DNA of 64,000 nucleotides from a virus, in the IMG/VR virus record IMGVR_UViG_3300049005_000030, positions 1 through 64,000 of that record; one strand, written 5' to 3'. Of this stretch, positions 8,693 to 42,300 are shown piece by piece (within the stretch, counting starts at the first letter, position 1; each line of letters begins with the position of its first letter). Made by a program: the position numbers and the translations under genes. Below the pieces are notes generated by a model. It was given only the letters and a program-made list of their open reading frames with translations. It was not told the DNA's origin and did no database searches.

Positions 8693-9550
8693 CTACAACC
8701 CTACCAACGCCAGCGCCGGCCACAGCAGGCCCGTCACGTCGCCGAGCACCACCACGTTGGCCGCCGTCAGCAGCGGCATCACCGCCCGGCGCTCGAACGC
8801 CTTGCCCGCGTGGAAGCGCAGCGGGTACGGCAGCAGGGCCACCTCACGCCAGCGCTGCCCGCGCACCCGCAGCGGCCACCAGAACGGCAGGCCGGCCACC
8901 GTGTGCCCGTCGCCCCAGCAGTGCACGTAACAGCCCAGCGCCACCACCGCGCCCAGCCATGCTCCGACCGGCGCGGGCACGTCGCCGAGCCAGCTGGCGG
9001 TCAGTGCGGTCAGGCCGGCGGCCGTGACGCTGACGGCCACCCAGCCGTTGGAGCGCAGCCACCGGGGCAGCGCGCGGCGCGCGGCGCGGCGCAGCCGCCC
9101 GTGGGGCTTGTCGTGGCCGAACCGGGGTGCGAGGCCGCGCACGGCCAGGGACAGGAAGACGAACAGGCACGCCAGCACGGCGACGCGTCCGCCCCAGCCG
9201 CAGGCCAGCGCGACCAGGCCGCCGAGCACGAGCGGGAACGGCCAGGTGTGGGTGATCTTGCGGTGGCCGTCACGGCACTCCGGCTTGTCGTAGCGGGTGC
9301 GCGTGCGGTGGTAGGCCCAGACGCCGAGGCTGTCCAGGCCGCGCGCGGCCGCCTCGCTCACGGGCCCGAACGCCCGGGAGACGGTGGCGCCCGGGTGGTC
9401 GAGGTCGGGCAGCAGGGCGGCCCCGGCGCACAGCGCGCCGGCCACCAGCTGGACCAGGACGCTGAGGTGGACGCCGAGCAGCGCCGGCAGCAGGTGGGCG
9501 GCGGCGGCGCCGATGACGCTGCCGTGCAGCGCGTGGCCAGGTGCCATCAT
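8693..9550 (-). CDS. YdjM-like membrane metal-dependent hydrolase family protein, 285 aa
   Basis: The family signature of YdjM/DUF457-type membrane proteins is visible: HALHGSVIGAAAAH near the N-terminus, PDLDHPGAT, GHRKITHTWPFPLV, and HCWGDGHTVAGLPFWWP. These His/Asp positions are the conserved putative metal ligands. Four or more hydrophobic helices place it in the membrane. ATG 9550 is preferred to the longer in-frame start because GGGAGAGA lies just before it. Phages carry such genes, but the role is unknown. No palindromic promoter points at it. Confidence 0.8.
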   Translation of the reverse strand: MMAPGHALHGSVIGAAAAHLLPALLGVHLSVLVQLVAGALCAGAALLPDLDHPGATVSRAFGPVSEAAARGLDSLGVWAYHRTRTRYDKPECRDGHRKITHTWPFPLVLGGLVALACGWGGRVAVLACLFVFLSLAVRGLAPRFGHDKPHGRLRRAARRALPRWLRSNGWVAVSVTAAGLTALTASWLGDVPAPVGAWLGAVVALGCYVHCWGDGHTVAGLPFWWPLRVRGQRWREVALLPYPLRFHAGKAFERRAVMPLLTAANVVVLGDVTGLLWPALALVGL

Positions 9551-9953: not shown

Positions 9954-10226
9954 ATGGGTAAAGAGATCGCCGGCATTGGGCTGGCGCTGGCCGGGTTCAT
10001 TGGCCTGGAAGTGATCGGTTTCATGTTGGCCGGATGGCCCTTCCCCGCCATCAGCGGGTGCATTGTGGCCATGGTCTGGGGCGCGTCGATCGCTACCGTC
10101 ACCGGGAACGCCGGAGCGGAGCGGAGCGGGAACGCCACCGGGAACGAGCAGGAAGGCGACGACGGCGGCATGGTCGTGCGCTTCGACCCCGACGACCCGG
10201 AGGCGTTGATCCCGGGGCGGAGCTGA
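9954..10226 (+). CDS. Small two-helix membrane protein with repeat-encoded tail, 90 aa
   Basis: Two hydrophobic helices (about residues 4-25 and 28-50) are followed by a polar tail containing SGNATGNEQEG. That tail is encoded by the repeat GAGCGGGAACGCCACCGG, also present in the downstream intergenic region and in the linker of the FtsK-like gene. AGGAGAAG precedes the ATG. It may be a partner of the translocation cassette; function unknown. Confidence 0.65.
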   Translation: MGKEIAGIGLALAGFIGLEVIGFMLAGWPFPAISGCIVAMVWGASIATVTGNAGAERSGNATGNEQEGDDGGMVVRFDPDDPEALIPGRS

Positions 10227-10345
10227 GCGGGAATCGGAGCGGAGCGGTTCCCGATGCAGCGGGAACGCCACCGGGAACGAGCGAGAATCGCAGGTCAGCG
10301 GAGCGGGAACGGGAAGCGGGAAGGTCGGGGACGTGAGCGGGAACG
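10100..10345. repeat. GAGCGGGAACG-type direct repeats
   Basis: A core of about 25 bp (AGCGGGAACGCCACCGGGAA and following CGAGC) occurs at 10124-10149 and 10258-10282, and inverted at 11226-11248 inside the FtsK-like gene. Shorter GCGGGAACG units lie around 10299 and 10335. The first and third copies are coding, in the same frame (SGNATGN); the second is non-coding. Confidence 0.7.
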
Positions 10346-10362
10346 GAACGCCGGAGTGGATC

Positions 10363-10586: not shown

Positions 10587-10625
10587 CACGGCGCCCGTCC
10601 CTCCGATCGAGGGGCGGGCGCCGTG
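10587..10625 (+). terminator. Intrinsic terminator
   Basis: A stem of at least 11 bp, CACGGCGCCCG/CGGGCGCCGTG, extended internally by CCC/GGG pairing. It closes the accessory block before the repeat array. Confidence 0.85.
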
Positions 10626-10646: not shown

Positions 10647-10791
10647 GTGGACGGTCGGACCGTCCACTGGACGGTACGAAGGGGGCTGGGGGAAGTATTT
10701 ACGGGTAGAAGGCCCTTTCGGACCGTCCGTGGACGGTTGGTGGACGGTGGCGGTGGACGGTTGGTGGACGGTCCGACCGTCCACCGTCCAC
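10647..10791. repeat. GTGGACGGT iteron-like array (origin or transfer locus candidate)
   Basis: Ten copies of GGACGGT occur on both strands. Full GTGGACGGT copies are at 10647, 10729, 10740, 10753 and 10764 (plus) and 10659, 10776 and 10783 (minus); 7-bp cores are at 10669 and 10722 (minus). Plus copies 10729-10764 are spaced 11, 13 and 11 bp, about one helical turn. The two groups flank a relatively AT-rich stretch (10691-10709). The array touches the stop of the FtsK-like gene. Short repeats beside an FtsK/TraB-type gene resemble clt loci of Streptomyces plasmids; replication iterons are the alternative. Confidence 0.85.
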
Positions 10792-12795
10792 TCACTCAGT
10801 GTTACCGTTGACCGCAGCGAGTCGCGGCCCGCACCACGCCCAGCGCCCGTGCTCACCCGTGCGCTTCACCTTCTTGTCCGCCTCCCAGACGGCCATCAGG
10901 TTGTAGAACCAGCTCGACTTGCGCCCGGCCGCCCGGTACAGCTCGACCGCCTTCACCCCCTGGCCGTCGGCTTCCATCAGCAGCCGCCGGACGATCTTCT
11001 CCGCGTCCTCATCGGAGCGGGAATCCCCCTCCGCCTCCGCGATGGCCTCCGCCCGGACCCGGTCGGACTCCTCCCGCTGCTCCGGGGTCATCGCTTCCCG
11101 CCGCCGCGCGATCACCTCCGCCAGGTCCACGTCCGGATCGTTCTCGCCCCACACCGTGACGTTCTCGCTCACGTCGCCCTCATCGCCTGCCACCTGGTCC
11201 TCCGCTCCGTTGGCGTTCCCGTTCCCGTTCCCGGTGGCGTTCCCGCTCGGTTCCCGCTCCGGCTCCGCCTGGTCGACGGGAACCCAGCGAACCCGCTCCG
11301 CCCACAGCGGACACACGGCGGAAAAACTCTCCTCCATTTGCGGCAACATTTTCGCCGTCTGCCCGCACCGTTCCTCGGCCACCGCGTCCCGCGTCGCATC
11401 GCTGATCCAGAAAATGCGGATCGGGGCTCGGTCTACCACCGCACCATCCTTCGCGTAGCACGTGCCCTGGCGGTTCGGGTCGATCAGATGGGCGCGCACC
11501 CCCGGCGTGCCACCAAAAACGTAGCTCTCGCCTTCGTCGTCCTCCATACGGAAACAGAACTTGTGCCGGATCTGCTGCCGAATCTGCGAAGAGCCAATCG
11601 CCTCCAACGTCGGGTATTGGGTGGCCAAAACGAATCGGACACCCAGACCGCCGCCCTTGTTGGCGATTTCCGCGAACCAGTGCACGATCAGGCCGTCGCC
11701 GGAACCCAGTAGCGTCTTGGCTTCATCGACGACGATTTGGGTGATCGGACCGTGCTTGCTGGTGTCCCACACCCGGTCACCGGTCGAGGCCATCAGCGCC
11801 GCGTTCTGGTCGAGCAGGCCGCCCGGCTCGGCGATCGCGCGCAGCACTTCCTTGGCCTCTGCGACCGTGGACACCACCAGCTCCATGCACTTGCGCCACG
11901 GGCCCAGCTCCACGCCGCCCTTGAAGTCGAAGCCGATCTGTTGCACGTCATCGGTGCAGGCGTCGCTGGCCACGATCAGGTTGATGAGCCCCGACTTGCC
12001 GCTGCGGGTGGCGCCGCCGATCAGCAGGTGGCGGACCCCGTCGCCCTTGACGTAGCGCTGGATGGTGCGCAGCTGGCCGTCGGCGCGCGGGCCCAGCACC
12101 AGCGGGTCGGTGGCCTTGCCCACGTGCGTGGGCAGCGGCCAGTTCTGGGCGGCCGCGTGCGGGTCGCGCTCGATCACCCGGAACCGGACGCTGCTGGTGG
12201 ACTTGCCGTCCTGCTCCATCTGCAACGTGCCCATGTCGGCGCCCAGCACGCTCTCCACCCGAGCGATGTTGGTCTTGCTCAGCACGTCGTCGACCTGATA
12301 GGTGCCCGGTGCCCAGGTGAATTTCCCGCTGTAGCCGGTCACGTCCATGGTCACCTCGACCGGGCGGGCGCGGTCGAAGTTGATCCGTTGCGCCACCGTG
12401 GGCCAGTCCTGCAACGTGGCCTCCATGCGCACCTGCTGACGCTTCACGTGGCTGGTCCACCACGGGATGCCGCCCACGAGGATGCCGGCGCCCAGGGACA
12501 ACCACGTCCACTGCGGCGACATCCACCCTTCGTAGGCGCACATCACCCACGAGGTGGACGCGCCCAGCACGCTGTAGGCGTACATCCGGCGCATGGGGTC
12601 GCCGATGCGGCTGCGGATCCAGGCGTAGCCAGCGAGCGCGCCCGCGCCGAGGCCGACCCCGCTCTGGACGAGGTCGGTCCCGGCCCAGTGCATCGTCCCG
12701 TCCAGCGCTGCGACACCAGCCCCCACATAGAAGGGGCCGAGCGCCAGGCGCTTGCGGCGCAGCACTTCCCAGAGGTTGATGTCGTCGTCACGCAT
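10792..12795 (-). CDS. FtsK/SpoIIIE-like (TraB-type) DNA translocase, 667 aa
   Basis: The N-terminal 115 residues hold about four hydrophobic segments, so it is membrane-anchored. The motor domain has Walker A GGATRSGKSG (about 260-269), DFKGG near 290, Walker B QIVVDEAK (353-360) and ATQYP (391-395), typical of FtsK/SpoIIIE. A low-complexity linker (SGNATGNGNGNANG, about 505-520) leads to a C-terminal region (about 598-667) with a winged-helix look. TraB proteins of Streptomyces plasmids use such a domain to bind short repeats, and the repeat array at 10647-10791 abuts this gene. It lacks the layout of a terminase. Last gene of a minus-strand unit; a transfer or segregation role is inferred. 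Confidence 0.9.
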   Translation of the reverse strand: MRDDDINLWEVLRRKRLALGPFYVGAGVAALDGTMHWAGTDLVQSGVGLGAGALAGYAWIRSRIGDPMRRMYAYSVLGASTSWVMCAYEGWMSPQWTWLSLGAGILVGGIPWWTSHVKRQQVRMEATLQDWPTVAQRINFDRARPVEVTMDVTGYSGKFTWAPGTYQVDDVLSKTNIARVESVLGADMGTLQMEQDGKSTSSVRFRVIERDPHAAAQNWPLPTHVGKATDPLVLGPRADGQLRTIQRYVKGDGVRHLLIGGATRSGKSGLINLIVASDACTDDVQQIGFDFKGGVELGPWRKCMELVVSTVAEAKEVLRAIAEPGGLLDQNAALMASTGDRVWDTSKHGPITQIVVDEAKTLLGSGDGLIVHWFAEIANKGGGLGVRFVLATQYPTLEAIGSSQIRQQIRHKFCFRMEDDEGESYVFGGTPGVRAHLIDPNRQGTCYAKDGAVVDRAPIRIFWISDATRDAVAEERCGQTAKMLPQMEESFSAVCPLWAERVRWVPVDQAEPEREPSGNATGNGNGNANGAEDQVAGDEGDVSENVTVWGENDPDVDLAEVIARRREAMTPEQREESDRVRAEAIAEAEGDSRSDEDAEKIVRRLLMEADGQGVKAVELYRAAGRKSSWFYNLMAVWEADKKVKRTGEHGRWAWCGPRLAAVNGNTE
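11226..11248 (-). repeat. Third copy of the GAGCGGGAACG repeat, inside the FtsK-like gene
   Basis: The minus strand reads GAGCGGGAACGCCACCGG and continues GAACG, matching 10124-10149 and 10258-10282. It encodes SGNATGN in the linker of the ATPase. Confidence 0.75.
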
Positions 12796-12812
12796 GGTCG
12801 TTCGCGCCTTTC

Positions 12813-13802
12813 TCAGCTGGTCAGGGTCTGGTCGTCGACTACCGCGCCGGCCTTGCGGGCCTGGGCGGCCTTGATCTCGGCGGCCATGTTCTCCTTCACC
12901 GTCGCGATGAAGTTGGCGAAGTAGGCGCCGGTTTCGGTCAGCGAGTCGCTGGCCCGGGTCAGGTTCTGGATGTCGCCGGGGTCGAATCCGGCCTGGACCA
13001 GTCGCAGCTTGTAGGCGCGGACGTGTTCGGACGCCTGGGCCAGGGCCTTCTCCAGGCCGAGCGCGTCGGCCTCGATCTGGCTCAGCCTCAGTCGGCCGGT
13101 CCCGCTGGCCGCGTACTCGGCGAATCCCCGTGCGACGAGGTTGGCCGCCGTGCTGTCTCCTGCCACTGCCTTGGCTCCGATCTTGTCCATGTGCGCCCGG
13201 TTGGCGGCGACGATCTTTTCGGCCCGGCGGTCCTCCGGGGTCTTGGCGGTGCTGCGGTGCCGCCCGCTCGGCTTGCCCTTGACCGGCTTGACGATGACCT
13301 TGCCGTTGGTCTTCTTGGTGGTGCCCAGGTGGAGCGCGGGCTGCTCCGCCTTTTTCTTGTAGATCATCTTTTCGTTGGCGTGAGCCAGGATGAAGTGCTG
13401 ATTGAGCAGCTCGGCGGACTCGAACATGGTCGAGCAGCTAAAACAGGTGAAGCTGCGCCGGCCGAACCTGCGCTTGTGGATCTTGGTCGGGTCCGGGACG
13501 ATCTTGCCGCCCAGCGTCCGCTCCGGGTGGTCTTCGTCGTAGACGATCTCGTGCCCACGCCGGGCGGCTACCTCGCGATCCACCGCGTTGCGCGTCTTGC
13601 GATAGGTGCGCTTGACCTGCCCGGGGGCGGTGAACACCGCGTAGTGCGCTGTGGCCTTCGCGGTGCCCACCGCCACCCGCACCAGCAGGTGGCGGTTGCG
13701 GGCCGGCTTCTTGCGCAGCCAGCCCCGCATCCGACGGCCGACCTTCACGCCGGGCGCCTCTTCCAGCCCGTCGCCCTTGGTGGTTTTGACTACACGTCCC
13801 AT
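12813..13802 (-). CDS. C2H2 zinc-finger protein of translocation cassette, 329 aa
   Basis: A single C2H2 finger is visible near residues 117-142 (FTCFSCSTMFESAELLNQHF then ILAH). The flanks are strongly basic (KKTNGKVIVKPVKGKPSGRH). The C-terminal third is helical (LEKALAQASEHVRAYKLRLV), perhaps coiled coil. The likely role is DNA binding or a partner of the FtsK-like protein, whose ATG lies 17 bases downstream. No family name is recalled. It begins 6 bases after the DUF2637-like gene stop, so it is co-transcribed. Confidence 0.75.
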   Translation of the reverse strand: MGRVVKTTKGDGLEEAPGVKVGRRMRGWLRKKPARNRHLLVRVAVGTAKATAHYAVFTAPGQVKRTYRKTRNAVDREVAARRGHEIVYDEDHPERTLGGKIVPDPTKIHKRRFGRRSFTCFSCSTMFESAELLNQHFILAHANEKMIYKKKAEQPALHLGTTKKTNGKVIVKPVKGKPSGRHRSTAKTPEDRRAEKIVAANRAHMDKIGAKAVAGDSTAANLVARGFAEYAASGTGRLRLSQIEADALGLEKALAQASEHVRAYKLRLVQAGFDPGDIQNLTRASDSLTETGAYFANFIATVKENMAAEIKAAQARKAGAVVDDQTLTS

Positions 13803-13808
13803 GTCTCC

Positions 13809-14630
13809 TTACTCCTGCCCGGTCGCGTCGGCCTCTGCTGCCAGCGCCGCCTTGAAGTCGCGGACGATCTGCCGCCCGCGCCCGGTGTCCTTGGTGGCGC
13901 CGAAGTAGGGCACGGCGACCAGTCGGTGCAGATCCGCACCGGTCACGTCCGCGCTGACGTGGCGCAGGTAGGCGGCCATGGCGTCACCGATGGTCGCGTC
14001 GGCCGGCATCCAGTCGGGGCGTCCGTCGGCGATCGGCGGCTTGGGCTCGGCGGCCGGCTTCGGCTTGGCGGTCGGCGCGGTCAGCACGACCGGGCGGGCG
14101 GCGACCCGGGTCTGCTCGCGGTCGGCGCGCTCGCGCAGGCGACGCACGAACCGGAACAGCAGCTCGACCAACGCGGCCATAGCCAGGGGCGGCCAGCCGG
14201 CGATGATCCACGCGGCCTTCTGGTCGATCCAGTCGTGGCCGATGTTGGCGAACACGGTCATACCCATGCCGCCCAGCGCGATCAGGTAGGCCAGCGGATC
14301 GGTCTTCTTGGTGCGGCTGTCCGCGTAGATGATCATGGACGCGGCCAGGATCGCGCCGTCCACGCTGATCGGGAACAGCGCCGCACGCCAGTCCGGCTCG
14401 TGGTTCTTGGTGGCCCAGTCCTGCATGTGCGAGTAGGAAATGGCCGCCGCGATGCCGACCACGGTCAACGTGGCGAGCAGGGCGACGCCGATCACCAGCC
14501 GCAGCTCCCAGCGACGCACATGGCCGCCGGCCGGTGACGTCGGACGCCTGAGCCGGAACCCGCGAAGCTTCGACAGCACGCGGCGGGTTGCCCCAGGCGC
14601 GTCGTGAGCACTACGACGCGCGAACTTCAT
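13809..14630 (-). CDS. DUF2637-like membrane protein, 273 aa
   Basis: The central region has the DUF2637 look: a helix (VIGVALLATLTVVGIAAAIS), then FPISVDGAILAASMIIYADS, LIALGGMGMTVFANIGHDW, and IIAGWPPLAMAALVELLF. That gives four transmembrane segments between residues about 44 and 165. Such proteins sit with tra/spd genes on actinobacterial plasmids and AICEs. A Pro/Lys-rich linker leads to a small C-terminal domain. ATG 14630 is chosen because AAAGGAGA lies upstream and the start overlaps the previous stop (ATGA). Confidence 0.85.
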   Translation of the reverse strand: MKFARRSAHDAPGATRRVLSKLRGFRLRRPTSPAGGHVRRWELRLVIGVALLATLTVVGIAAAISYSHMQDWATKNHEPDWRAALFPISVDGAILAASMIIYADSRTKKTDPLAYLIALGGMGMTVFANIGHDWIDQKAAWIIAGWPPLAMAALVELLFRFVRRLRERADREQTRVAARPVVLTAPTAKPKPAAEPKPPIADGRPDWMPADATIGDAMAAYLRHVSADVTGADLHRLVAVPYFGATKDTGRGRQIVRDFKAALAAEADATGQE

Positions 14631-14929
14631 GATCCGGTCGTCTCCTTTCGGCGGGCCGATCGCCTGCGCCATGTGCTGGCCGGCACCTGTGTGCAGTTGG
14701 CCAGGACATTCCACGACGTCCCGTTGTCTCTGTTGATCTTCAGTACCGCGTCGCGCACCCCGGTCAGCGTGCTGACCATCCGGTCCAGCGTCCGCAGGTC
14801 GCCCAGCGGATCGGAACCGAGCGCGACGGCGGAACCGAGGGCATCGACCCGGTCAGCGACAGCGCGCACTTGGGCGCTGAAGTCGAGGGGTTCGGTGTCC
14901 ACGTAGTCGCTCCGTTCTGGGTTGCGCAT
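14627..14929 (-). CDS. Small helical protein, first gene of translocation unit, 100 aa
   Basis: Helical heptad-like patterns (VRAVADRVDALGSAVAL, LRTLDRMVSTLTGVRDAV) suggest a coiled coil. The family is unknown. There is no clear Shine-Dalgarno; a -10 box (TAGGGT) ends 8 bases before the ATG, so the mRNA is probably leaderless. Its stop overlaps the DUF2637-like start by 4 bases (ATGA). Confidence 0.7.
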   Translation of the reverse strand: MRNPERSDYVDTEPLDFSAQVRAVADRVDALGSAVALGSDPLGDLRTLDRMVSTLTGVRDAVLKINRDNGTSWNVLANCTQVPASTWRRRSARRKETTGS

Positions 14930-14937
14930 TTACACAT

Positions 14938-14967
14938 ACCCTACCCCGGTATAGATGCCGCCGTCCA
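14938..14967 (-). promoter_or_regulatory. Promoter of the translocation unit (P15)
   Basis: Minus strand: TGGACG, 18-bp spacer, TAGGGT. Spacing and -10 fit the palindromic family, but the inverted repeat in the spacer is degraded (left GGCGGC, right ACCGGGG). It ends 8 bases from the start codon at 14929. Confidence 0.55.
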
Positions 14968-15096: not shown

Positions 15097-16719
15097 GTGG
15101 CGGTGACGTTCGCGCCGAACCTGCGCCGGAAGGTGGTGGCCACCACCCCCGCTCGGGAAACCAAAGGTCTGGCCGACCGGGTCAAGACGTTTTTCCGTCA
15201 GTACGTCATCCCCGGCCAGCCCTACTTCGTCCCGTGGAACACCGACCGCGCCGTCCGCGAGGGCTTCGAGACCAACCCGTGGATCTACCGCGCCGTGCAC
15301 GTGATCGCGTCCAAGTCGCTGGACCTGCCGATCGTGCTGCGCCAGAACGACGGCGACAAGGGCGATCCGCTGGCGCCGGAGCTGGACCCGACCCGGCTGC
15401 TGTACCTGCTCAACGTGGAGGCCAACCCCTGGGAGCGGGCCAAGATCTTCCGCTACCGCCTGATCGCCCAGTTCCTGCTGTCCAGCAGGGGCGTGTTCAT
15501 CGAGGTGGTGCGCACCCGCGCCGGCCGCATCGGGCTGCTGAGCCTGCTGGACCCGGACAAGGTCGAGATCATCCCGACCAAGGAAATCCTGCCCGACGGC
15601 ACCGAGAAGATCGACCCTATCGGCACGTTCCGGATCACCCTGCAAGGCGGGGAACGCACGTTCGACTACCTACCCCGCTTCGACCCCAAGGGCAGTTACG
15701 ACAGCCAGGCCAGCAGCGTGTTGTGGGTGCGCTCACCGCACCCCACCCTGATGTTCCAGGGCATGACGCCTACCCAGGCCGCCGCCATGAGCGCCGACAT
15801 GGACCGCGCCGCCCGGCTCTACAACCGCCGTTTCATGGACTCCGACGGCCGGCCGGGCACGGTGATCGCCGTCAAGGGTACCGCCACCCGCGACACTCTG
15901 GACGTGGTCGAGAGCCGGATAGCCGGCAAGGCCCGGATCGACGGCCCTGGGGGTGTCGTCGCCATCCAGGCCGATGGGCTCAGCATTGCCGACACCTCCG
16001 GCAACCCTCGGGACACCCAGTGGGCCGAGACGATGGACCGGATGCGCAAAGAGGTCAGTATGACCTTCGGCGTCCCAGAGTCGATCTTGGGCGACGCGTC
16101 CGGACGCACCTTCGACAACGCCGACGCCGAAAAAGAGAACTTCTGGGAGGACACCGAGTCCCCCCTGCTGGCCATCCTGGACGACCAGCTGGACGTGCTC
16201 ACCGGCGGCTATGACGACTCCCTGTTCCTGCGCCACGACAAGTCCGGCGTGTGGGTGCTCGGCCGGCACCGGCGCATGGAGCTGGACCGCGCCTCGGCCG
16301 AGGTCGACACCGGCAAGCGCACCATCAACGAGTACCGCGCGCTGGCCGGCCTGGACGAGTACGAGAGCCCGCTGGCCCGCGTGCTGCTCATCCCCGGCGG
16401 CAAGATCATCGGCGCACTCAACGCCGAGGACGAGGCGGCCGCCGCCAAGGCCCCGATCCTGGGCAACCGGCTGCCTGCGGGCAACGTCGAAGCGCAGCAG
16501 GCCGCAGCCTTGAGCGGCCAGGCCGGCGCGGCCATCGGCTCGCTGGCCGGGGTGAACGCGGCCAACAACATCAACAACGCCAACAGCCTGCGCGCCCTGC
16601 CGCCCGGCGACCGCCAACCCACGGCGCTGGCCGGCAAGGACGGCGAGCCCCCGGACTTGGAGGGTAAGCAGGGCGGCGCGCGAGACCGAGGCGGGCGCAC
16701 CGCCACTGTCTGGCGATGA
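15097..16719 (+). CDS. HK97-type portal protein, 540 aa
   Basis: The portal forms the dodecameric ring through which DNA enters and leaves the head. The sequence fits the phage_portal family: NPWIYRAVHVIASKSLDLPI near the N-terminus, IAQFLLSSRGVFIEV, a long stem/wing region, and MRKEVSMTFGVPESILGD followed by the NADAEKENFWEDTESPL helix. The length is normal. The C-terminal 100 residues are Ala/Gly-rich and probably disordered. The GTG start follows GGAAAGGGG. A possible -10 (TACCCT, 15060-15065) lies upstream. No terminase gene precedes it. Confidence 0.93.
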   Translation: MAVTFAPNLRRKVVATTPARETKGLADRVKTFFRQYVIPGQPYFVPWNTDRAVREGFETNPWIYRAVHVIASKSLDLPIVLRQNDGDKGDPLAPELDPTRLLYLLNVEANPWERAKIFRYRLIAQFLLSSRGVFIEVVRTRAGRIGLLSLLDPDKVEIIPTKEILPDGTEKIDPIGTFRITLQGGERTFDYLPRFDPKGSYDSQASSVLWVRSPHPTLMFQGMTPTQAAAMSADMDRAARLYNRRFMDSDGRPGTVIAVKGTATRDTLDVVESRIAGKARIDGPGGVVAIQADGLSIADTSGNPRDTQWAETMDRMRKEVSMTFGVPESILGDASGRTFDNADAEKENFWEDTESPLLAILDDQLDVLTGGYDDSLFLRHDKSGVWVLGRHRRMELDRASAEVDTGKRTINEYRALAGLDEYESPLARVLLIPGGKIIGALNAEDEAAAAKAPILGNRLPAGNVEAQQAAALSGQAGAAIGSLAGVNAANNINNANSLRALPPGDRQPTALAGKDGEPPDLEGKQGGARDRGGRTATVWR

Positions 16720-19922: not shown

Positions 19923-22900
19923 GTGACCGCACCCCCGATCCCCGCCCTGGAATACAAGACCCTCAGTGCCACCCTGGCCGCGCCGACCGCGCTCAACCCC
20001 AGTGACACCGGGGACGCCGTGGTGGTCGGCTACGACGACGCCAAGGGCACCGTCGACGCCGTAGTGGCCGTCACCGGCACTCGCGACGAGGTGGGCGACA
20101 TCGTCACCCCCGGCGCGTTCAAGTCGAGCATCGCTAGCCGCCACCCCAAGATGTGCCTGGGCCACGACTGGAACCGACCCATCGGCTGGCCCATCGACTA
20201 CAAGGAACTGCTGCCCGGAGACCCCGGCCTGCCGGCCGAGACCGCCGACGGCAAGCCGTGGCCTGCCGAGGCCGGCGGCCTGTGGACGCGCAACCAGTAC
20301 ATGCTCGACACCCAGGACGGCCGCGACGCCTACGCGCACGCGAAGTTCTACGGCAACAAGACGGCCTACTCCATCGGCTACGTCGTCACCAAGTCCCGCA
20401 AGGCCCTGGTCGACGGCCTGCCCACCCGGATCATCGACGAACTCGACCTGTACGAGTACGGCCCGGTGCTGCACGGAGCGCACCCGCTGGCCACCCAGCA
20501 GTCGGTGAAGACCGCCGCGCCGCAGGGTATCGAGAACAAGGTGCGGCTGGTTCACGACGCCCACTACTGGGGTCTGCCGATGGGCACCCCGATCCACCCC
20601 GGCATGAAGCCGCGCGGCGCGAAGGCGCAGAAGCTGGAACGGGCCGGGCACGCCGTGTCCGAGACCGAGGGCGCGGTGGACATCCCCAATGACAAGCTGC
20701 GGATCAAGCCGACCGCGCGGGGCAAGTCGAAGTTCAAGCCGGACGGCGCGCTACAGGCCCAGCTCTACGGCGAGATCATGTCGAAGATCGACGAGGGCGA
20801 GGCTCCCGAGGACTTCTCGGTCGACGACCCGAACGGCCTGAACAAGAAGGAAGGCGAGTACAACCCGCTGGACCTGATGGTGGCCAACGGCGTCACCCCG
20901 GCCGAGATGGAGAACACCCTCCGCAACGCCAACTGGGACGACAGCCGGGTGGGCGACTCGGCCGACAACCAGGACCAGATCAACACTTTCGTTGACGACG
21001 TGGTGGGCGTCTACCGCGAGAAGTACAACGCCGCCCTGGTCCAGCAGAACGGCAACAAGGACACCGCCACCGTCGCCGACCCCGCCGACACCGGCACAGA
21101 CTCGGCCGGTGTCGAAGGCCCCACCCCGGACGTGCCTGACACCACCGCGCCCGGAGACGCCAATGCCGGCGACACCACCGCGCCGGCCGCGCCCGAAGCG
21201 ACCGCGCCGGACCACCCGCAGGCAGCGCCGGGGTCGACTCCCCCGGCCGCGCCGGCAGCCGCGCCGGGGCAGCCGGACGCGCCCGGCATGTCCACCACGA
21301 AGCTGACCACGCTGCCCAAGCACGAGGCGGCGGCCGCCGCCGGCTCCATGTCCGACCAGGAACTGGCCGCGCACGACACCGAGATGGCCTCGCGTGCCAC
21401 CCAGCTCGGCCGCGACGGCCAGGTCAGCCCCAACCATCAGACCGTCAAGGACGAGGTCGCCCGGCGTGCGGGCAACCCGCCGCAGGCCCCGGCGGCCGGG
21501 CCCGCCGCCCCGGCCGCGAACGCGCCGGCTCCGACGACGGCCAAGCCGCCGCGCAAGCTGGCCGCCAAGCCGGCCGCCGCGATCGGCGCGGCCAAGCCCG
21601 GCAGCGTCACCCAGCACCCGACCGGCCCCGACGGCAAGCCCGACACCACCGCCGAGCCCGTGGCCAAGCAGGGCCTGGTCACCGACAAGGTGCCGCCGAA
21701 GATGGCCGACGGCCTGGCCAAGGCTGGCCTGGCCGAGCACACCGCCGAGCCCGGCAAGATGGTGCTGACCCCGCAGGGCGAGCAGCACCACCATGCCATC
21801 AACGGCACCACGCCGCCCGCGCCGAACGGCGCGCCAGGGGAACAGGCCCCTACCGCGCCGACGATGTCCACGAACAAACTGGCCTCGCTGAACAAGCAGG
21901 ACGTGGCCACAGCGGTGGGCGCGATGTCCGACCACGAGCTGGCCGGACACGACCAGGAGTTGGCCAGCCGCGCCTCCCAGCTCGGCAAGCCAGGTCAGGT
22001 CACCCCCAACCACCAAGCGGTCAAGGACGAGATCGCCCAGCGTCCCGCACCGGCCCCCGGCGGGATCCCCCCGACCGCCGCCGTGGGAGCGCCGGGGATG
22101 GCTCCGGCCGTCCCCGGCGCATCGGCCGTCCCTGGCGAGCCTGCGCACGCCAATGCCGTGGCCGCCGAGACGTTGCGCACCCTGCCGCGCGACGCCTCCG
22201 GCCGCGTCGACCTGGTCAACGCGCCCACCTCGCTGGTTCAGACCATGCGACAGGCCGGCATCGACGACAGCGGCGGCGCGGAACAAGATGAACAGTCGTT
22301 TACCCGCGCGCTGGACGCGCTGGACCAGCAGTACGGCCAGGACCCGGCCATGGCGCACGCGCTGACCACCGCACGCGGCTTCGTCACTGGCGAGCAGCCC
22401 GGCGCCCGCGTCATCCAGAAGCAGGCCGCCGCCGACGCCAAGCAGCTCCAGACCGATGAGACCCCGGTGGGCGACCGGGCCGACGCCGCGCGCGTGCTGG
22501 CCTCCGCCCTGAACAAGTCCGGCATGGCTTACATGTCCGACCCGTCCGGCAACGTCCGCGACAGCCGCCCCATCCCGAACGCCCTGTCGAAGTACGCCCA
22601 GGCCCTGGTCAGCTATCACGGCGCGCTGCCGCCCGCGAAGGTCGCCAAGCCCTCCGGCGCGCCCGACTACACCCCGACCGGCGACGCCAGCCGCCTCGGC
22701 GAGCTGACCGACAGCCAGTTGGCCGCCGAGGTTGGCCACGCGCAGGGCAAGCTGGACGAGATCACCAAGGCCGACCCCCGCCGCGAGTCCGGCCAGCACG
22801 CTGACGCCAAGCTGAAGCTGGACGCCTTCCAGGGTGAGCACAGCCGACGGCAGCAGGCCGGGGAGACGCGCCCGGACGAGACCGCTCCCGACGCAAGCGG

Positions 22901-25900
22901 AGGCACTCCTCCGAATCCGGAGGCCGTTTCGGCGACGTCCACACAGGACGGACAACCGGCCGCCGTTCCCAACGCTGCCAACGAAACCGGCATCCCCGGC
23001 ACACCCGCCGCACCGCCGGCCACCCCGCACTCCGACACTGTTCCGACCCCACAGGAAGCCGCCCAGATCACCGCCGACGAACAGGGCGACGTCCAGGACA
23101 TCGGCGACTCCGCTCAAGGCGTGGTCGAGTCCGACGACGGCGAGTTCGAGGTGGAACCCGACATCGCCGAACGCCAGGACCGCATCGCCACCCTGCTCGG
23201 CCAGTCCGATAGCGGCAACCTCGACCTGGGCAGCCAGAACGACGACCAGTTGCGCTCAACCCGAGGCGACATCGTCGGCGAGATCCAGTTGCAGCGGTAC
23301 CTGGACAACCGCAACCGCCAGCGCGCCAACCCGCAGCCCACCACACCGGAACCGCCGCACGCCCCGGAGGGCGCCGCACCGGCCCAGGGAACCGTCGACG
23401 GCCACACCCCCGGCACCCAGGCGACGCCCGGCGCGCCGGTGCCGGCCGTTCCGGCCGAATCGGGGCCGCCGCCGCAGCGCCCTGGCGTCGCGGGCGCGGC
23501 CGAGGACTTCGCCGACGCCCTGGAATCCGGCGACAGCGAGAAGATCGACGCCGCGCGGGCCCGGCTGGCGTCCAGCCTGCGCCGGTCCAAGACAGACGCC
23601 GCCTCGGTCGGCGCGATGCGCGAGCTGGCCTCCGGCGAAGGCGACCCGAGTGCGGAGGACCTGCGAGCCGGCGCCCAGACGGTGCGCACGGAGGTGCGCG
23701 AGCGGCGCAACACCCAGGCTCGCAGCCGCCGCACCGCGCGCCGCTTCGAGCGCGACCACCTGCGCAACCTGCTGCACCAGGTCGAAGGCGAGATGGACCG
23801 CCGCAACATGCGGTACGACCCGGTGGCGCCGGAGTCCGGCGACGGCGCGGCCGCCTCCGGGACGTGGCGGACCGAGCTGCGCAAGCATTCCTGGTCCAAT
23901 CTCGGCTTCCAGGAAGACCATCTGAGCGGGGCCAACTTCACCGCCATGGTCTCCACCCCGGTCGACGCCAAAAACAACCCCACCGCTGGCGCGAACTACA
24001 CCTGGAAGACCATCGACAACGATGGCAACACCATCACCCAGGGCAATGGCACCGTCGACAACGCCACCGGCGCCCGCGACGCCATCGTCACCGCGCTCAA
24101 GGCGCAGCAGGCCCTGGGCAACCTGCCCGCCGACGCCGGGGTGCCCGAACCCAGCACTCCCCAGACCAGCTCGGCGCGCACCCATGCCGACGTGGCCGCC
24201 GCCGTCAGCCAGATGCAGGAGCGGCTGAGCACGGCCGAACGCGCCGTCAACCCCATCACGGGGGCCCGCGATCCGCTGGGCAAGCGCCCGACGCTGACCC
24301 CGCCCGCGCGACCCGCGTTCACCAGCCCCGACCAGGTGCGCCAACACCTGGCGACCCTGGCCGCCGACGGGTCGCAGACCCGCCAGCTCATCGCCCGGCG
24401 AGCCGTGAACGTGCAGTGGGACAACGTGCAGCTCACCCCCGGCGGCGGCCTCATGGTCGTCACCGTGGCCGGCGAGAAGGACCCGCAGCTGTGGCACACC
24501 GGCAGTGGCCGCTCGGCCATGTCGCTGATCTACCGGGGTTCCGGCGGCGCCTCCCGCCTGTCCGCGCCGGATCTGCTGCGCGCCGGCACGCTCATGGAGT
24601 CGCTGCCCGACGACAACGGGCACACCGTCGACTTCTCCAGGTCCGACGACAACAGCGTGATGACCAGCACGAGCGACTACACCGTGGGCGACCGCAGCGG
24701 CGTCGACGCGTTCGCTCGCAACGTCATGAGCGCGCTGGTCGCCGAGAAGATCAAGAACGGCCAGTGGGGCAGCCCCGTGGTCAGGGGCATGTCCTCCGAC
24801 GTCGCTCCGTTCTCGCCGGGCAGCAACCACACCCGCGCCGGCTACGTGCAACAGAACCGCGACGCCCTGACCACAATGCTGTCCAACTCCCTGACCGGCC
24901 GCCGCGTCAAGCCCACCGGCGAGGACGCGGACACCCTCAACGTCGCCACCGCCGCCCAGACCCTGACCAACCTGGGCGCGCCCGACGCGGCCGCCGTGCT
25001 GCTGCGCCGCCGCGCCGCCGAGGTGCGCGCCACCTTCGGCGGTGAGGCCGACGCGCACGGTGCGAGCACCCTGGACAACCTGGCCGCCGGCCACCTGTCC
25101 ACCTACTCACCTGTCCTGTCCCCCGGCGAGCGGCTGCTCAGCATCACCCAGGGGGAACGCGTCACCGTGGCCGACCCCGACGGCAACGCCCGTAGCTACC
25201 GGGTGCTGTCGCCGCCGCGCACCGGCACGTTCCCCGCCTATCGCACCGCCACCGTCATGGACGAGTCGACCGGCGAGACCGGCGTGCTCACCGTCGCCAA
25301 CAATGCCGCCGAGCAGCCGCAGATGACCATCAGTCCCAGCGCGGACCTGCCGGCCATGGTGCGCATCGACCTGCACTCGCCCACCTTTACCGTGACCGGC
25401 GCGGACGAACCGGCCCCCGCCAACGCCGACGAGGTGCGCGCGAACGCCATGGCCGAGGTGGACGCCATCCCGCATGAGGTGCTGGACGCGGCCGCCGCCG
25501 CCCTGCCCTCCACCAACACCGAGACCGCCGCGCGTCGGGCTCTGCCGGCCGACCAGCGGCCGCCCCGGCGCACCAGCCCGCGCGCGGTCCCCAAGACCGC
25601 GCCGGAGGCCAAGCCGGGCACCCCGGTCGCTGGCGAGCAGCACCTGGCGGCCACCCAGGCCAGCACGCTCAGCTCGTGGGTGGGCGCCGAGCACACGCTG
25701 TCCGACTCGGCCCCTGCCGGTGGATTTGACTCGCTGGCCTCATGGCGGGAGTGGGCCAGGGAGGCCGCCAGCGACCCGAACACGCCGCCGAAGGTGCAGC
25801 AGGGGCTGACCAATGCGTTGCTCAACGACGACTACCTGGAAGCGAACGGGGCACGTCTGTCACCGGGTGGTCACATGATCGTGTTCGGAAAGAACGGACA

Positions 25901-27005
25901 CGTGGTCTACGCCCGCGCTGGCATGACCGTGTTCCCGGCCGGCGTCGGCGCGGCATCCGCCATCGGCGTGGACAAGATCCCGCCCGACACCGGTATGGCC
26001 ATCGCCGACGGGATCGAGCGCAGCTCGTGGAACGGGCAGACCATCCGCTGGGGCGATGGGTACACAGCCGCCACCTCCGACATCAAGAAGGTTATGGAAA
26101 ACCTGCCGCGCGCCAGCGACAAGGTGGGGTACCGGGATCCGATGCTGTCCCCGGCCAAGCTGGCGTTCGCCGGCCAGGTGGCCGACGCCAAGACGCCCCG
26201 CGTGGGCGACATCGAGGCGCTGGAAGCACTGGCCAGCGGATCGGCCTCGCCGAACATGGCGAGCCCGGACGCCATCGGCGGCCTGCATCTACAGGACCGG
26301 GAGAACGCCTACCGGCAGATGGCCGGTGTGCGCGCCCGGGTGTTCTACTCCACCCCGGTCAAGCGGAACGAGCCCGCCGACACCAAGGCAGGCCAGAACC
26401 TGGCGAAGCGGGTGGCCACGGAAATGCGGATCGCCCAGTCGCTCTCGCAGGTCGCTCCGCTGGACGCCTCGCGCCGGCTGAACCGGGTGGCCGACGAGAT
26501 CGACGGCCAGAAGATCACTGAGGCCAACGGCGGTTCCGAGCACAACCCGGCCGCCGAGATGCGGGCGGCGGCCCGCGCGATCGCCGATGCCTACGACGAG
26601 AACAAGGTGACGCCGTTCGGGAAGCTTCGCCGCGCCGGAAATGTCGGTCTGGTCATGCCACGCTCGGCTCCGAAGGTGACGGCCGTTGGCGCGGGTACCT
26701 ACAGCCGTGACGACCGGGCCAAGGCGCTGGGCGAGATGCTGGCCCAGGGGGTCCAGTTCACGCGCGGCGAGGACGGGGCGACCATCGCCCGGTTCGGCGA
26801 CCAGGCTGTGACGACCTCGAACACGCCGGGGCAGTTCACCACCGCGTACGCGGGCGGCAACGGCAAGCCGGTGCAGGGCGGCATCGGGCTCCAGCCGGAC
26901 GGCAGTATCACGATGCGCTGGCAGGACCGGCTCACCCGCACCACGGTTCAGGCCACGATTCCGGCGGGCGGCTGGGATTTCCAGGACTCCACAGCCGAGG
27001 AATAA
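19923..27005 (+). CDS. Prohead protease fused to giant virion (polyvalent-type) protein, 2,360 aa
   Basis: Residues about 30-185 are an HK97-type prohead serine protease: TGTRDEVGDIVTPGAF, catalytic H81 in LGHDW, nucleophile S150 in KTAYSIGY, and DLYEYGPVLHGAH. Stand-alone members are usually about 200 aa; here 2,100 more residues follow without a stop. These include Pro/Ala-rich linkers, two 60-residue direct repeats starting at M456 and M648 (MSTTKLTTL and MSTNKLASL), coiled-coil stretches and several unrecognised globular regions (for example about 1300-1560 and 1900-2360). This suits a polyvalent protein that is packaged and cleaved. The GTG start follows AGGAAGG; P11 lies upstream. Confidence 0.85.
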   Translation: MTAPPIPALEYKTLSATLAAPTALNPSDTGDAVVVGYDDAKGTVDAVVAVTGTRDEVGDIVTPGAFKSSIASRHPKMCLGHDWNRPIGWPIDYKELLPGDPGLPAETADGKPWPAEAGGLWTRNQYMLDTQDGRDAYAHAKFYGNKTAYSIGYVVTKSRKALVDGLPTRIIDELDLYEYGPVLHGAHPLATQQSVKTAAPQGIENKVRLVHDAHYWGLPMGTPIHPGMKPRGAKAQKLERAGHAVSETEGAVDIPNDKLRIKPTARGKSKFKPDGALQAQLYGEIMSKIDEGEAPEDFSVDDPNGLNKKEGEYNPLDLMVANGVTPAEMENTLRNANWDDSRVGDSADNQDQINTFVDDVVGVYREKYNAALVQQNGNKDTATVADPADTGTDSAGVEGPTPDVPDTTAPGDANAGDTTAPAAPEATAPDHPQAAPGSTPPAAPAAAPGQPDAPGMSTTKLTTLPKHEAAAAAGSMSDQELAAHDTEMASRATQLGRDGQVSPNHQTVKDEVARRAGNPPQAPAAGPAAPAANAPAPTTAKPPRKLAAKPAAAIGAAKPGSVTQHPTGPDGKPDTTAEPVAKQGLVTDKVPPKMADGLAKAGLAEHTAEPGKMVLTPQGEQHHHAINGTTPPAPNGAPGEQAPTAPTMSTNKLASLNKQDVATAVGAMSDHELAGHDQELASRASQLGKPGQVTPNHQAVKDEIAQRPAPAPGGIPPTAAVGAPGMAPAVPGASAVPGEPAHANAVAAETLRTLPRDASGRVDLVNAPTSLVQTMRQAGIDDSGGAEQDEQSFTRALDALDQQYGQDPAMAHALTTARGFVTGEQPGARVIQKQAAADAKQLQTDETPVGDRADAARVLASALNKSGMAYMSDPSGNVRDSRPIPNALSKYAQALVSYHGALPPAKVAKPSGAPDYTPTGDASRLGELTDSQLAAEVGHAQGKLDEITKADPRRESGQHADAKLKLDAFQGEHSRRQQAGETRPDETAPDASGGTPPNPEAVSATSTQDGQPAAVPNAANETGIPGTPAAPPATPHSDTVPTPQEAAQITADEQGDVQDIGDSAQGVVESDDGEFEVEPDIAERQDRIATLLGQSDSGNLDLGSQNDDQLRSTRGDIVGEIQLQRYLDNRNRQRANPQPTTPEPPHAPEGAAPAQGTVDGHTPGTQATPGAPVPAVPAESGPPPQRPGVAGAAEDFADALESGDSEKIDAARARLASSLRRSKTDAASVGAMRELASGEGDPSAEDLRAGAQTVRTEVRERRNTQARSRRTARRFERDHLRNLLHQVEGEMDRRNMRYDPVAPESGDGAAASGTWRTELRKHSWSNLGFQEDHLSGANFTAMVSTPVDAKNNPTAGANYTWKTIDNDGNTITQGNGTVDNATGARDAIVTALKAQQALGNLPADAGVPEPSTPQTSSARTHADVAAAVSQMQERLSTAERAVNPITGARDPLGKRPTLTPPARPAFTSPDQVRQHLATLAADGSQTRQLIARRAVNVQWDNVQLTPGGGLMVVTVAGEKDPQLWHTGSGRSAMSLIYRGSGGASRLSAPDLLRAGTLMESLPDDNGHTVDFSRSDDNSVMTSTSDYTVGDRSGVDAFARNVMSALVAEKIKNGQWGSPVVRGMSSDVAPFSPGSNHTRAGYVQQNRDALTTMLSNSLTGRRVKPTGEDADTLNVATAAQTLTNLGAPDAAAVLLRRRAAEVRATFGGEADAHGASTLDNLAAGHLSTYSPVLSPGERLLSITQGERVTVADPDGNARSYRVLSPPRTGTFPAYRTATVMDESTGETGVLTVANNAAEQPQMTISPSADLPAMVRIDLHSPTFTVTGADEPAPANADEVRANAMAEVDAIPHEVLDAAAAALPSTNTETAARRALPADQRPPRRTSPRAVPKTAPEAKPGTPVAGEQHLAATQASTLSSWVGAEHTLSDSAPAGGFDSLASWREWAREAASDPNTPPKVQQGLTNALLNDDYLEANGARLSPGGHMIVFGKNGHVVYARAGMTVFPAGVGAASAIGVDKIPPDTGMAIADGIERSSWNGQTIRWGDGYTAATSDIKKVMENLPRASDKVGYRDPMLSPAKLAFAGQVADAKTPRVGDIEALEALASGSASPNMASPDAIGGLHLQDRENAYRQMAGVRARVFYSTPVKRNEPADTKAGQNLAKRVATEMRIAQSLSQVAPLDASRRLNRVADEIDGQKITEANGGSEHNPAAEMRAAARAIADAYDENKVTPFGKLRRAGNVGLVMPRSAPKVTAVGAGTYSRDDRAKALGEMLAQGVQFTRGEDGATIARFGDQAVTTSNTPGQFTTAYAGGNGKPVQGGIGLQPDGSITMRWQDRLTRTTVQATIPAGGWDFQDSTAEE

Positions 27006-39369: not shown

Positions 39370-42300
39370 GTGGCCGGAGAGGACGAAATCCGGGTATCCG
39401 CCACGCTGACCGGCGACATCAACGCGGCGCTGACCAAGATGGAAGAGCGCATCAACGCCGTGGAGAACGCGCTCCAGTCCATGGGGCGATCGGGCCAGAC
39501 CGGCGGCCGCACCGGCGCCGAGGGGCTCGACAAGCTGGGCAAGTCGAGCAGGAAGACCGGCGACGAGTCCGAGACCGCCAAACGCAAGGTCAAGGGCCTG
39601 GGCGACGAGGCCGAGAAGACCGGAGTCAAGGCGGGGGCCGGCTCGAAGGGTCTGGACGAGTTCGCCAAGAAGGCCAAGAAGATGGGCGACAGCTCGGGTG
39701 GGCTGTCCAAGCTGCTGACCTTCTACAAGTTCGCCGGCATCGCCACCGGGATCTTCGCCGCTGCCGGTGGCCTCTCGGCGCTGGGCGCCGGCTCAGTCAT
39801 CGCGCTGGCACACCTCGCGCCGCTGCTGCTCAACCTAGCCAACCTCGGCCCGATCGGGCTGGCGTTCGCGGCGAGTATGGCCGTGATCAAACTGTCGGCG
39901 CAGGAGTTGCAGGGGCCCATCGGTCGCATCAAGCAGCAGTTCACCGACCTGGGGTCCAGTGTCGCCAACGCCGGCCTGGTGCAGGGGATGAACCAGCTGG
40001 CCACCGCGATCGCGCCGGCCGTGAAGGTGATCGGCGTCGGGCTACAGGGGATCTCGGCTGAGCTGGGCGGCGGCGCGTCCGCGTTGGGCAAGTGGTCGGC
40101 GCAGGCCACCACGCTGGCTTATCTGTCGGCCATCTTCGCCGGGCTGCGGCCGATCGTGAATTCGGTGCTGGGCGCGCTGCTGTCGTTGTTGACGCCCGCC
40201 CTGGCGCTGATCAAGGCCATCATTCCCACGTCGCAGATGATGGCCGCGAATCTCGCGCTGACCGCTGGCAAGCTGGGCGCATGGGTGCAGGCGGCCAGCG
40301 ACTCCGGCAAGATCACCCAGTGGTTGACCCAGGCGTGGTATCAGCTGCAAAACGGCGGGCACGCGCTCTGGAACATCCTGGTGGGCCTGTTCAACATTTT
40401 CCACGTCGCCTACGGCACAGTGCAGGACTTCGGCAAGGGTATCTTCTTCCTGACCGTCAAGTTCCGCGAGTGGACCGCCTCGGCGCAGGGGCAGGCGCGG
40501 ATCACCAAGTACTTCCAGGACGCGCTGCCCGCGCTGCATGAGATGGGTTTGATTCTCCAGGAAGTGTTGAGTTATCTGGGTCATCTGGGCGGCAGTATGA
40601 ATATCGCGCCGCTGCTTCAGCAGATCCGCGTGGAACTGCTGCCGGCCGTGTTCACGCTGTTGAACAGCCTCACCCAGAAAGACGGTCTCGGTCCGGTGCT
40701 GATCGACCTGGCCAGCGACCTCGCGCTGCTGTTCGCCGGAACCGACTTCGGCGGATTCATGACGCTGGCCAAGCTGGCAGACGACGCGGCCGGCGCGCTG
40801 CTGTGGTTCCAGAACACGGTACCCGGAGCCAACATCCTCATCTCCGCGCTGCTGTTCTCGATGCTGGGGTTCAAGCTGCTGGCCCCGGTGTGGACGATCG
40901 TGGGCAAGGGCGCTGAGGCGTTCAACTGGATCAAGGTGGCGACCAGCGACACCAAGGACCTGACGCTGGCCCAGAAGCTGTTCTCGGGGGGGCTCAATCT
41001 CCTGCCCAAGATCGGCGCGGCCGCCGCCTCGGCCTTCTCCGCCATGGGCTCCGCCCTGATCGAGATGGGCGCGGCCGCCCTGGCCAACCCCATCGTGCTG
41101 ATCGTCGTGGCGATCATCGCCGTGATCGCCGGCCTGGTGCTGCTCTACATGAAGTGTGAGTGGTTCCGCAACGCGGTGAATGCTATTTTCAAGGCCATCG
41201 CCGATTTCGCCGTTATGATCTGGGGCTTTATCGTCGCCGCTTTCTGGGCGTCCATAAACTTTATCGTCGGAATAGCGCAAGGTGTTGCTTCATTCTTTGT
41301 CGGCATCTGGTCCGTTATTTCCGGCGCGGCGGTTGCTGCCTGGAACTTTGTGGCCGATATCGTGAAATCGGTGGTTGACTTCATCGTTGGCGTTGTTATG
41401 GCGATTTGGACCTACGGCGTTCAGCCGGTAGTCAATTTCATCGTGGCTGCCTTTCAGGTCGAATTCGCCATCATCGCGTTCATCGTCCAGACCGCCGTGT
41501 ACATCATCGTCGCCATTATCGTCGGGCTGGCCTTGCTGTTCAAGGCGATCTGGGACGGAATCGTTTTCGTCGCCCAATGGGCCTGGCAGCAAATTGTCGA
41601 CGGTGCGCTATGGCTGTGGAACAACGGCATTAAGCCTGTCATCGACGGGATCGTTAATGAATGGAACGGTCTTGTTCAAATTGTCACCGACGCCTGGAAT
41701 TGGCTGACGAAAACCCTGGGTGACGCCTGGAATGCTTTCTATTCCACGTACATTCAGCCGGTAATCGACACTATCTCATATTACTGGAACGTCTCCGTTC
41801 TTACCTGGCAGATTATGTTCCAGGGATTCGTTGACGGCATTTCCGCTGCCTGGAACTGGATCTACTCGAATGTGATTCAGCCGGTGATCGACGGAATTAG
41901 CACTGCCTGGAACGGCTTGACTTCCGGACTGTCCACGGCGTGGCAAGCGGTAGTCGATTTCATCAGCCCGATTTGGCAGGGCTTCTCCGACTTCGTCGGC
42001 GACGTCATTAAGGGAATCGGCGGGGAATGGGATCAGTTCACCAAGTTCTTGAGTGACGCGTTTACTCCGGTCGGCCACGTCATCGGCGATATCTGGGACG
42101 GGATCAAAAAGGGCGCGGACGCCGTCGTCGACGGCATCAAGGGTGCCTGGAATGGTCTCATGTCCATTGTCAAGGGCGTGTGGAATTTCATCGCGAATGG
42201 CTGGAATTCGATTCCTTCCATCGTGGTTCCCGACTGGATTCCGGTGATCGGCGGCGAGACCTTCAGCCTGCCCAAGCTGCCCACCCTGTGGCACGGCGGC

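Follow-up and report, generated by a model that had tools for sequence, protein, structure and literature searches.

Streptomyces plasmids such as pIJ101, pSVH1, pWTY27 and pJV1 transfer double-stranded DNA between cells by means of TraB/clt modules, in which a membrane ATPase of the FtsK type with a C-terminal winged helix reads a repeat site. The clt of pWTY27 takes in 16 bp of the tra gene together with 159 bp next to it, and contains 7-bp repeats and inverted repeats (PMC3583192). A Tra protein of FtsK/SpoIIIE type is likewise found in AICEs of the pSAM2 type. FtsK-like genes of actinophages, to our knowledge, have usually been annotated and left unexplained.

We analysed the virus record IMGVR_UViG_3300049005_000030 (101,153 bp), of which bases 1-64000 constitute the window, the whole 64-kb stretch to which positions refer unless the record is named. 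The first and last 127 bases of the record are identical, the usual mark of a circular-mapping contig in a k=127 assembly, and the genome is therefore complete at ~101,026 bp and without host flank. Circularly permuted virion DNA yields an identical circular map; the map is thus not proof of a plasmid state and may merely reflect such permutation. The phage is contractile and a distant relative of Gordonia phage GMA6; the group to which it belongs is uncultured, with hosts that are probably actinobacteria. Matches to PHROG identified the portal, a MuF protein, a maturation protease, the tail sheath, the tape measure and the baseplate, so that the record holds the virion and packaging genes of a phage, as a phage-plasmid would. 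A Pfam search of the record revealed UvrD and SNF2 helicases. The AEP-type primase named in the preliminary description is backed by PHROG matches to DNA polymerase/primase; the protein had no match in Pfam.

Several other features of the record were observed. A 2360-aa protein (window 19923-27005) has an N-terminal maturation protease (PHROG E 4e-25) followed by a long unassigned remainder, and Gilgamesh encodes a 4624-aa protein nearby. GC content falls to 0.60 at window 40001-42000, inside the tape-measure gene, compared with ~0.69 elsewhere. A glycoside hydrolase family 26 gene lies at 96531-97634 of the record (L008:14531-15634; Pfam E 7e-22), and a 732-aa protein at 80207-82405 has no Pfam or PHROG match. 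At 83230-86390, two gene-poor stretches of ~1.1 and 1.2 kb flank a YitT-like membrane gene, and the same region gave one odd ARAGORN tRNA call without an anticodon (L008:3747-3818).

The minus-strand cassette and its ATPase

The preliminary description had placed an AICE- or actinobacterial-plasmid-type translocation cassette of four minus-strand genes beside a portal gene and virion genes. All four genes were recovered at 14929-10792, overlapping or closely spaced, with the portal at 15097 and the virion genes adjoining, and both gene homology and synteny across the related phages bear out a TraB-type module within a phage genome. The features are as follows:

10088 to 10355, no strand: array 2, made up of GCGGGAACG repeats that overlie the 3' end of a gene for a small membrane protein; may be iterons
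10587 to 10625, no strand: 17-bp inverted repeat, likely a bidirectional terminator bounding the array-1 locus
10647 to 10791, no strand: array 1, TGGACGGT units in two blocks that flank a core, two 21-bp palindromes among them; clt-like
~10680 to 10715, no strand: the core, GGGGGCTGGGGGAAGTATTTACGGGTAGAAGG, between the array-1 blocks; conserved across relatives and L179
10792 to 12795, minus: TraB/FtsK-type dsDNA translocase, 667 aa (Pfam FtsK_SpoIIIE E 2.2e-8)
11200 to 11260, minus: extra copies of the array-2 motif, within the ATPase linker
12813 to 13802, minus: C2H2 zinc-finger protein, 329 aa (C-x2-C-x12-H-x4-H)
13809 to 14630, minus: DUF2637 protein, 273 aa, multi-TM with a C-terminal HTH-like segment (Pfam PF10935 E 1.9e-19)
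14627 to 14929, minus: first cassette gene (cc100), 100 aa, predicted coiled-coil/charged; 30-46% in L117, L121, L122 and L123
15097 to 16719, plus: portal, adjoining the cassette (PHROG portal E 2.3e-40)
89912 to 91411 of the record: terminase (Pfam)

The ATPase displays the TraB architecture: N-terminal TM helices, called from the model and hydropathy only, an FtsK/RecA motor with Walker motifs (GATRSGKS), a linker, and a C-terminal winged helix at residues 595-654. It aligned collinearly from end to end with the NCBIfam plasmid_TraB profile NF041214 (24-661 on 17-638/639, E 1.7e-26), at 93 bits, far short of the curated (equivalog) cut-off of 800. Its match to PF01580 makes it a Tra of the FtsK/SpoIIIE type, as in AICEs, and pIJ101 TraB matched a profile of the ATPase and linear-plasmid homologues (E 8e-7). 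The AlphaFold model had a mean pLDDT of 65, with the motor region and the C-terminal domain mostly at 70-90; in Foldseek, its best PDB matches (E ~1e-13) were motor domains of FtsK and TcpA, a conjugation coupling protein, and its C-terminus folds as helix-helix-helix-strand-strand, a winged helix. Among the partner genes, the DUF2637 gene is kept near the portal in relatives and its product is a candidate Spd-like protein. Homologues of the C2H2 protein lie within the relatives' cassettes, and the C-x2-C-x12-H-x4-H finger is retained in L119 and L121.

Conservation in the phage lineage and beyond

Only profiles derived from the lineage itself retrieved relatives; querying IMG/VR with the ATPase or the portal as single proteins gave no matches, and neither did an IMG/VR scan with an ATPase/plasmid profile or a genome scan with the sheath profile. 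The portal profile recovered 45 loci in IMG/VR. The comparison with full relatives suggested in the preliminary description placed the cassette at the portal, with ATPase and DUF2637 genes nearby, in 12/12 distinct related genomes including the present one (portal identity ~45% or more). The eleven further genomes, with duplicates counted once, are L119, L121, L122, L123, L124, L129 (identical to G005), L132, L134, L135, L136 and L139; loci were counted only where the upstream sequence reaches far enough, leaving out L126-L128, L130, L131 and L138 as too short. The cassette is inverted in L132, and the contigs of L117 and L137 stop within it. Five complete circular maps carry the cassette, namely the present genome and four relatives with terminal repeats of 91-127 bp. 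It was not found in the examined loci with a portal below 40%, nor in Bendigovirus or Cantare. By its synteny, the cassette is evidently a fixed part of the phage lineage.

The complete G005 genome (128 kb) is collinear with the present one and carries a diverged cassette. This encodes TM proteins, a DUF2637-like protein (E 0.005) and an ATPase bearing GKTRSGKT, which hhalign matched to the profile at E 4e-6, together with a divergent GntR regulator. A search for the ATPase in 25 sheath-related records came back empty because these are mostly tail-region fragments and the G005 ATPase is too diverged; the latter was recognised later by synteny and hhalign.

The ATPase profile also led to two other settings, in which the virion genes of L179 and the genes of L174 were named by reading of the sequence. 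L179 (58-kb contig) has a matching cassette and array in a phage of different arrangement, where the terminase adjoins the portal; array 1 and its core thus accompany the ATPase into another phage backbone. L174, from an actinobacterial MAG, is an AICE-like element carrying GntR, TraB, excisionase-like and integrase-like genes and a DUF2637 gene near tra.

A repeat locus 3' of the ATPase gene

After the ATPase stop codon come a repeat block, the core, a second repeat block and the hairpin, with block-core-block spanning ~150 bp. Array 1 comprises ten copies of TGGACGGT, one of them mismatched. The repeat array reported earlier is real: of the nine copies of GTGGACGGT in the 64-kb window, eight fall at 10647-10791 (1.2 expected in the whole window), and the 21-bp palindrome occurs twice (0.01 expected). 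Among 137 gene 3' ends in the element, that of the ATPase ranked first by repeat score (19; mean 5.2), ranks 2 and 3 being array 2, and in G005 it ranked third of 174, after that genome's own array-2 loci. Repeats exceeded shuffles in 11 of 13 loci (60 shuffles each, none above the observed value, p at the floor of 1/61), the exceptions being L124 (p 0.07) and L122 (p 0.11). A hairpin stands at the matching place in L119, L121, L123, L124 and L179. Control FtsK/TraB genes (Gilgamesh, phage-plasmids, linear plasmids, an AICE and pIJ101) scored 5-8 at their 3' ends, near background; since these controls lack an array directly 3', the position is a trait of the phage lineage and not general for TraB. 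It is similar to that in pWTY27, where clt adjoins one end of traA (PMC3583192). Scanning IMG/VR with the core pattern returned, beside repeats, known loci only. As read from the sequence, array 1 and the ATPase, with a repeat cluster in cis adjoining the tra gene, are laid out like TraB and clt of Streptomyces plasmids.

The repeat units vary with the predicted recognition helix. The unit TGGACRRT with the helix SSW(F/L)Y is present in this genome, four relatives and L179; L124 pairs the unit CGGAACGG with KKSWVY, and the array-1 unit of G005 is GTGAGTGA. Across 12 related loci, with hand-picked repeat units and a hand-chosen nine-residue helix window, recognition-helix similarity tracked array-1 unit similarity (rho 0.73, Mantel p 0.0005), and a partial correlation of 0.56 persisted after removing the rest of the protein. 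Because units and window were chosen by hand, the covariation is suggestive, not proof, that the ATPase reads array 1 via its winged helix.

An array with other units lies in the position matching array 2 in relatives. In the present genome, array 2 (GCGGGAACG) resembles the iterons of pWTY27, GTGGGAAC (PMC3583192); that it could be a replication origin is a guess. As a site for the ATPase array 2 is disfavoured by a partial correlation with the helix of -0.10 (nine loci), and an FtsK-type KOPS reading is unsupported because the copies cluster and are not spread genome-wide. Near array 2, at window 8693-9550, lies a gene for a YdjM-type membrane hydrolase; several relatives have a probable homologue close to the cassette.

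Proposed function, alternatives and known systems

We put at roughly 55% the probability that the cassette is a TraB/clt module owned by the phage and used to pump its dsDNA through septa or contacts between cells. The ATPase would be anchored in the membrane as a hexameric FtsK-type ring motor; its C-terminal winged helix would bind array 1 just past its own gene, with array 1 acting like a plasmid clt; and the DUF2637 and C2H2 proteins would be probable Spd-like membrane and DNA-contact partners. Phage DNA, intact and double-stranded, could then be driven by the motor through a septum or a contact between cells, and phage genomes would thereby enter neighbouring compartments of a multicellular host without a virion, the host being, we assume, probably a filamentous, multicellular actinobacterium. 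The proposal draws on the homology and fold of the ATPase, the lineage-wide conservation and synteny, the non-random repeats at the clt position, the covariation of unit and helix, and a homologue found alongside Int, Xis and GntR in an AICE-like element. A bolder version, that the phage spreads between mycelial compartments or between cells as naked dsDNA by its TraB-like motor and own clt-like site besides its contractile virions, as a counterpart of plant-virus movement, is offered tentatively and we would sooner bet against it.

The preliminary description had also considered a phage-plasmid using the ATPase for partition. Domain searches of the present genome and its four complete relatives found no tyrosine integrase, resolvase, ParA or ParB: PF00589 and PF00239, searched for the integrase or serine recombinase expected of an AICE, were empty over the whole 101 kb, and PF13614 and PF02195, for plasmid maintenance, were empty in all five genomes. 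The same searches gave hits in the positive controls, for integrase and ParA in Gilgamesh phage and for ParA and ParB in the MBT27 plasmid. A classical phage-plasmid is therefore unsupported, and since temperate or plasmid life is not indicated, spread during infection is at least as likely as maintenance. Five Streptomyces plasmids of 130-133 kb (NZ_CP070374, NZ_CP108441, CP108533, NZ_CP122459 and NZ_CP107821) with a Gilgamesh-like portal and an FtsK/TraB-like gene look, from their gene content, like phage-plasmids of the Gilgamesh type; NZ_CP070374, the sole one tested, has both ParA and ParB.

These searches bear directly on the alternative that the ATPase is a segregation device, driving phage DNA across septa as they close at division or sporulation in the manner of SpoIIIE/FtsK, with array 1 as a loading or centromere site, so that carried genomes are kept in daughter cells or spores and no transfer takes place. 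The FtsK motor fold, the FtsK/SpoIIIE-like genes in other phages of spore formers (Bacillus phages, Gilgamesh) and the circular map are in keeping with it; nevertheless, with no ParA, ParB or integrase found in the present genome or the four complete relatives, stable carriage is not indicated, and the DUF2637 gene set and 3' repeat locus are closer to plasmid tra regions than to a segregation locus. We regard segregation as unlikely, though it is the strongest of the competing explanations. Array 1 and its core might instead be a replication origin or operator, adjacent to the ATPase gene for regulation or replication, with the ATPase serving some other role, as iteron-like repeats flanking a conserved core, the AEP-type primase and the likeness of the pWTY27 iterons to array 2 (PMC3583192) would allow. 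This is distinctly improbable given that the covariation implicates array 1 as the site read by the ATPase, that array 2 is the better origin candidate, and that array 1 and core travel with the ATPase to the L179 backbone. The observation named beforehand as a refutation, a foreign element beside a prophage with att sites or a junction between 14,929 and 15,097, did not materialise: there is no junction, and synteny holds in 12 distinct genomes. An inserted plasmid or AICE, or a chimeric assembly, would explain why the cassette differs from the virion genes in strand and gene content, but with the map circular and complete and the cassette in one position throughout the 12 distinct genomes, its probability is negligible, and conserved synteny rules it out.

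Our literature search returned no report of TraB/clt in phages, a weak absence given that many subscription papers were outside its reach. The present analysis places an FtsK-like actinophage gene in a conserved cassette of four genes, accompanied by a DNA site that looks cognate, lineage-wide and on a second backbone. It makes testable the plasmid-style transfer of DNA by a phage across septa or to new cells without a virion, which, if true, would link phages to conjugative elements and amount to a new way for genes to move in actinobacteria.

Compared with described systems, Thermobifida phage P1312, judged by its description, is an actinophage with an FtsK/SpoIIIE gene (ORF63) beside a large hypothetical gene, but it has a serine recombinase and no reported repeat locus (PMC4569894). 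Bendigovirus phages GMA6, DalanDe and FlyingTortilla and Brevibacterium phage Cantare share collinear contractile virion genes (sheath 42-46% identical), whereas they are without the cassette and their terminase lies ~1-2.6 kb from the portal. The Gilgamesh-type Streptomyces phage and phage-plasmids of 126-132 kb have a portal 35-38% identical and an FtsK-like gene between terminase and portal, and Gilgamesh also has DUF2637; they differ in that the sheath search gave no match, integrase or ParA/ParB was found, and no array lies directly 3' of the FtsK gene. AICEs of the pSAM2 type resemble the phage in their FtsK/SpoIIIE Tra, a candidate Prim-Pol-like protein and, in the chromosomal AICE-like L174, DUF2637 near tra, whereas the phage has portal, terminase, capsid and contractile tail, and no integrase or excisionase was found in it. 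Unlike the Streptomyces TraB/clt modules, the phage module resides in a tailed phage that has all its virion genes, uses other repeat units and shows 19-48% identity even between the present genome and related phages, and the replication and spread genes of those plasmids were not recognised in the phage. With them it nonetheless shares the membrane FtsK-type ATPase, the C-terminal winged helix and a repeat site that the phage ATPase would read, as well as the adjoining of clt and tra gene seen in pWTY27 (PMC3583192) and, in G005, the divergent GntR regulator of pIJ101.
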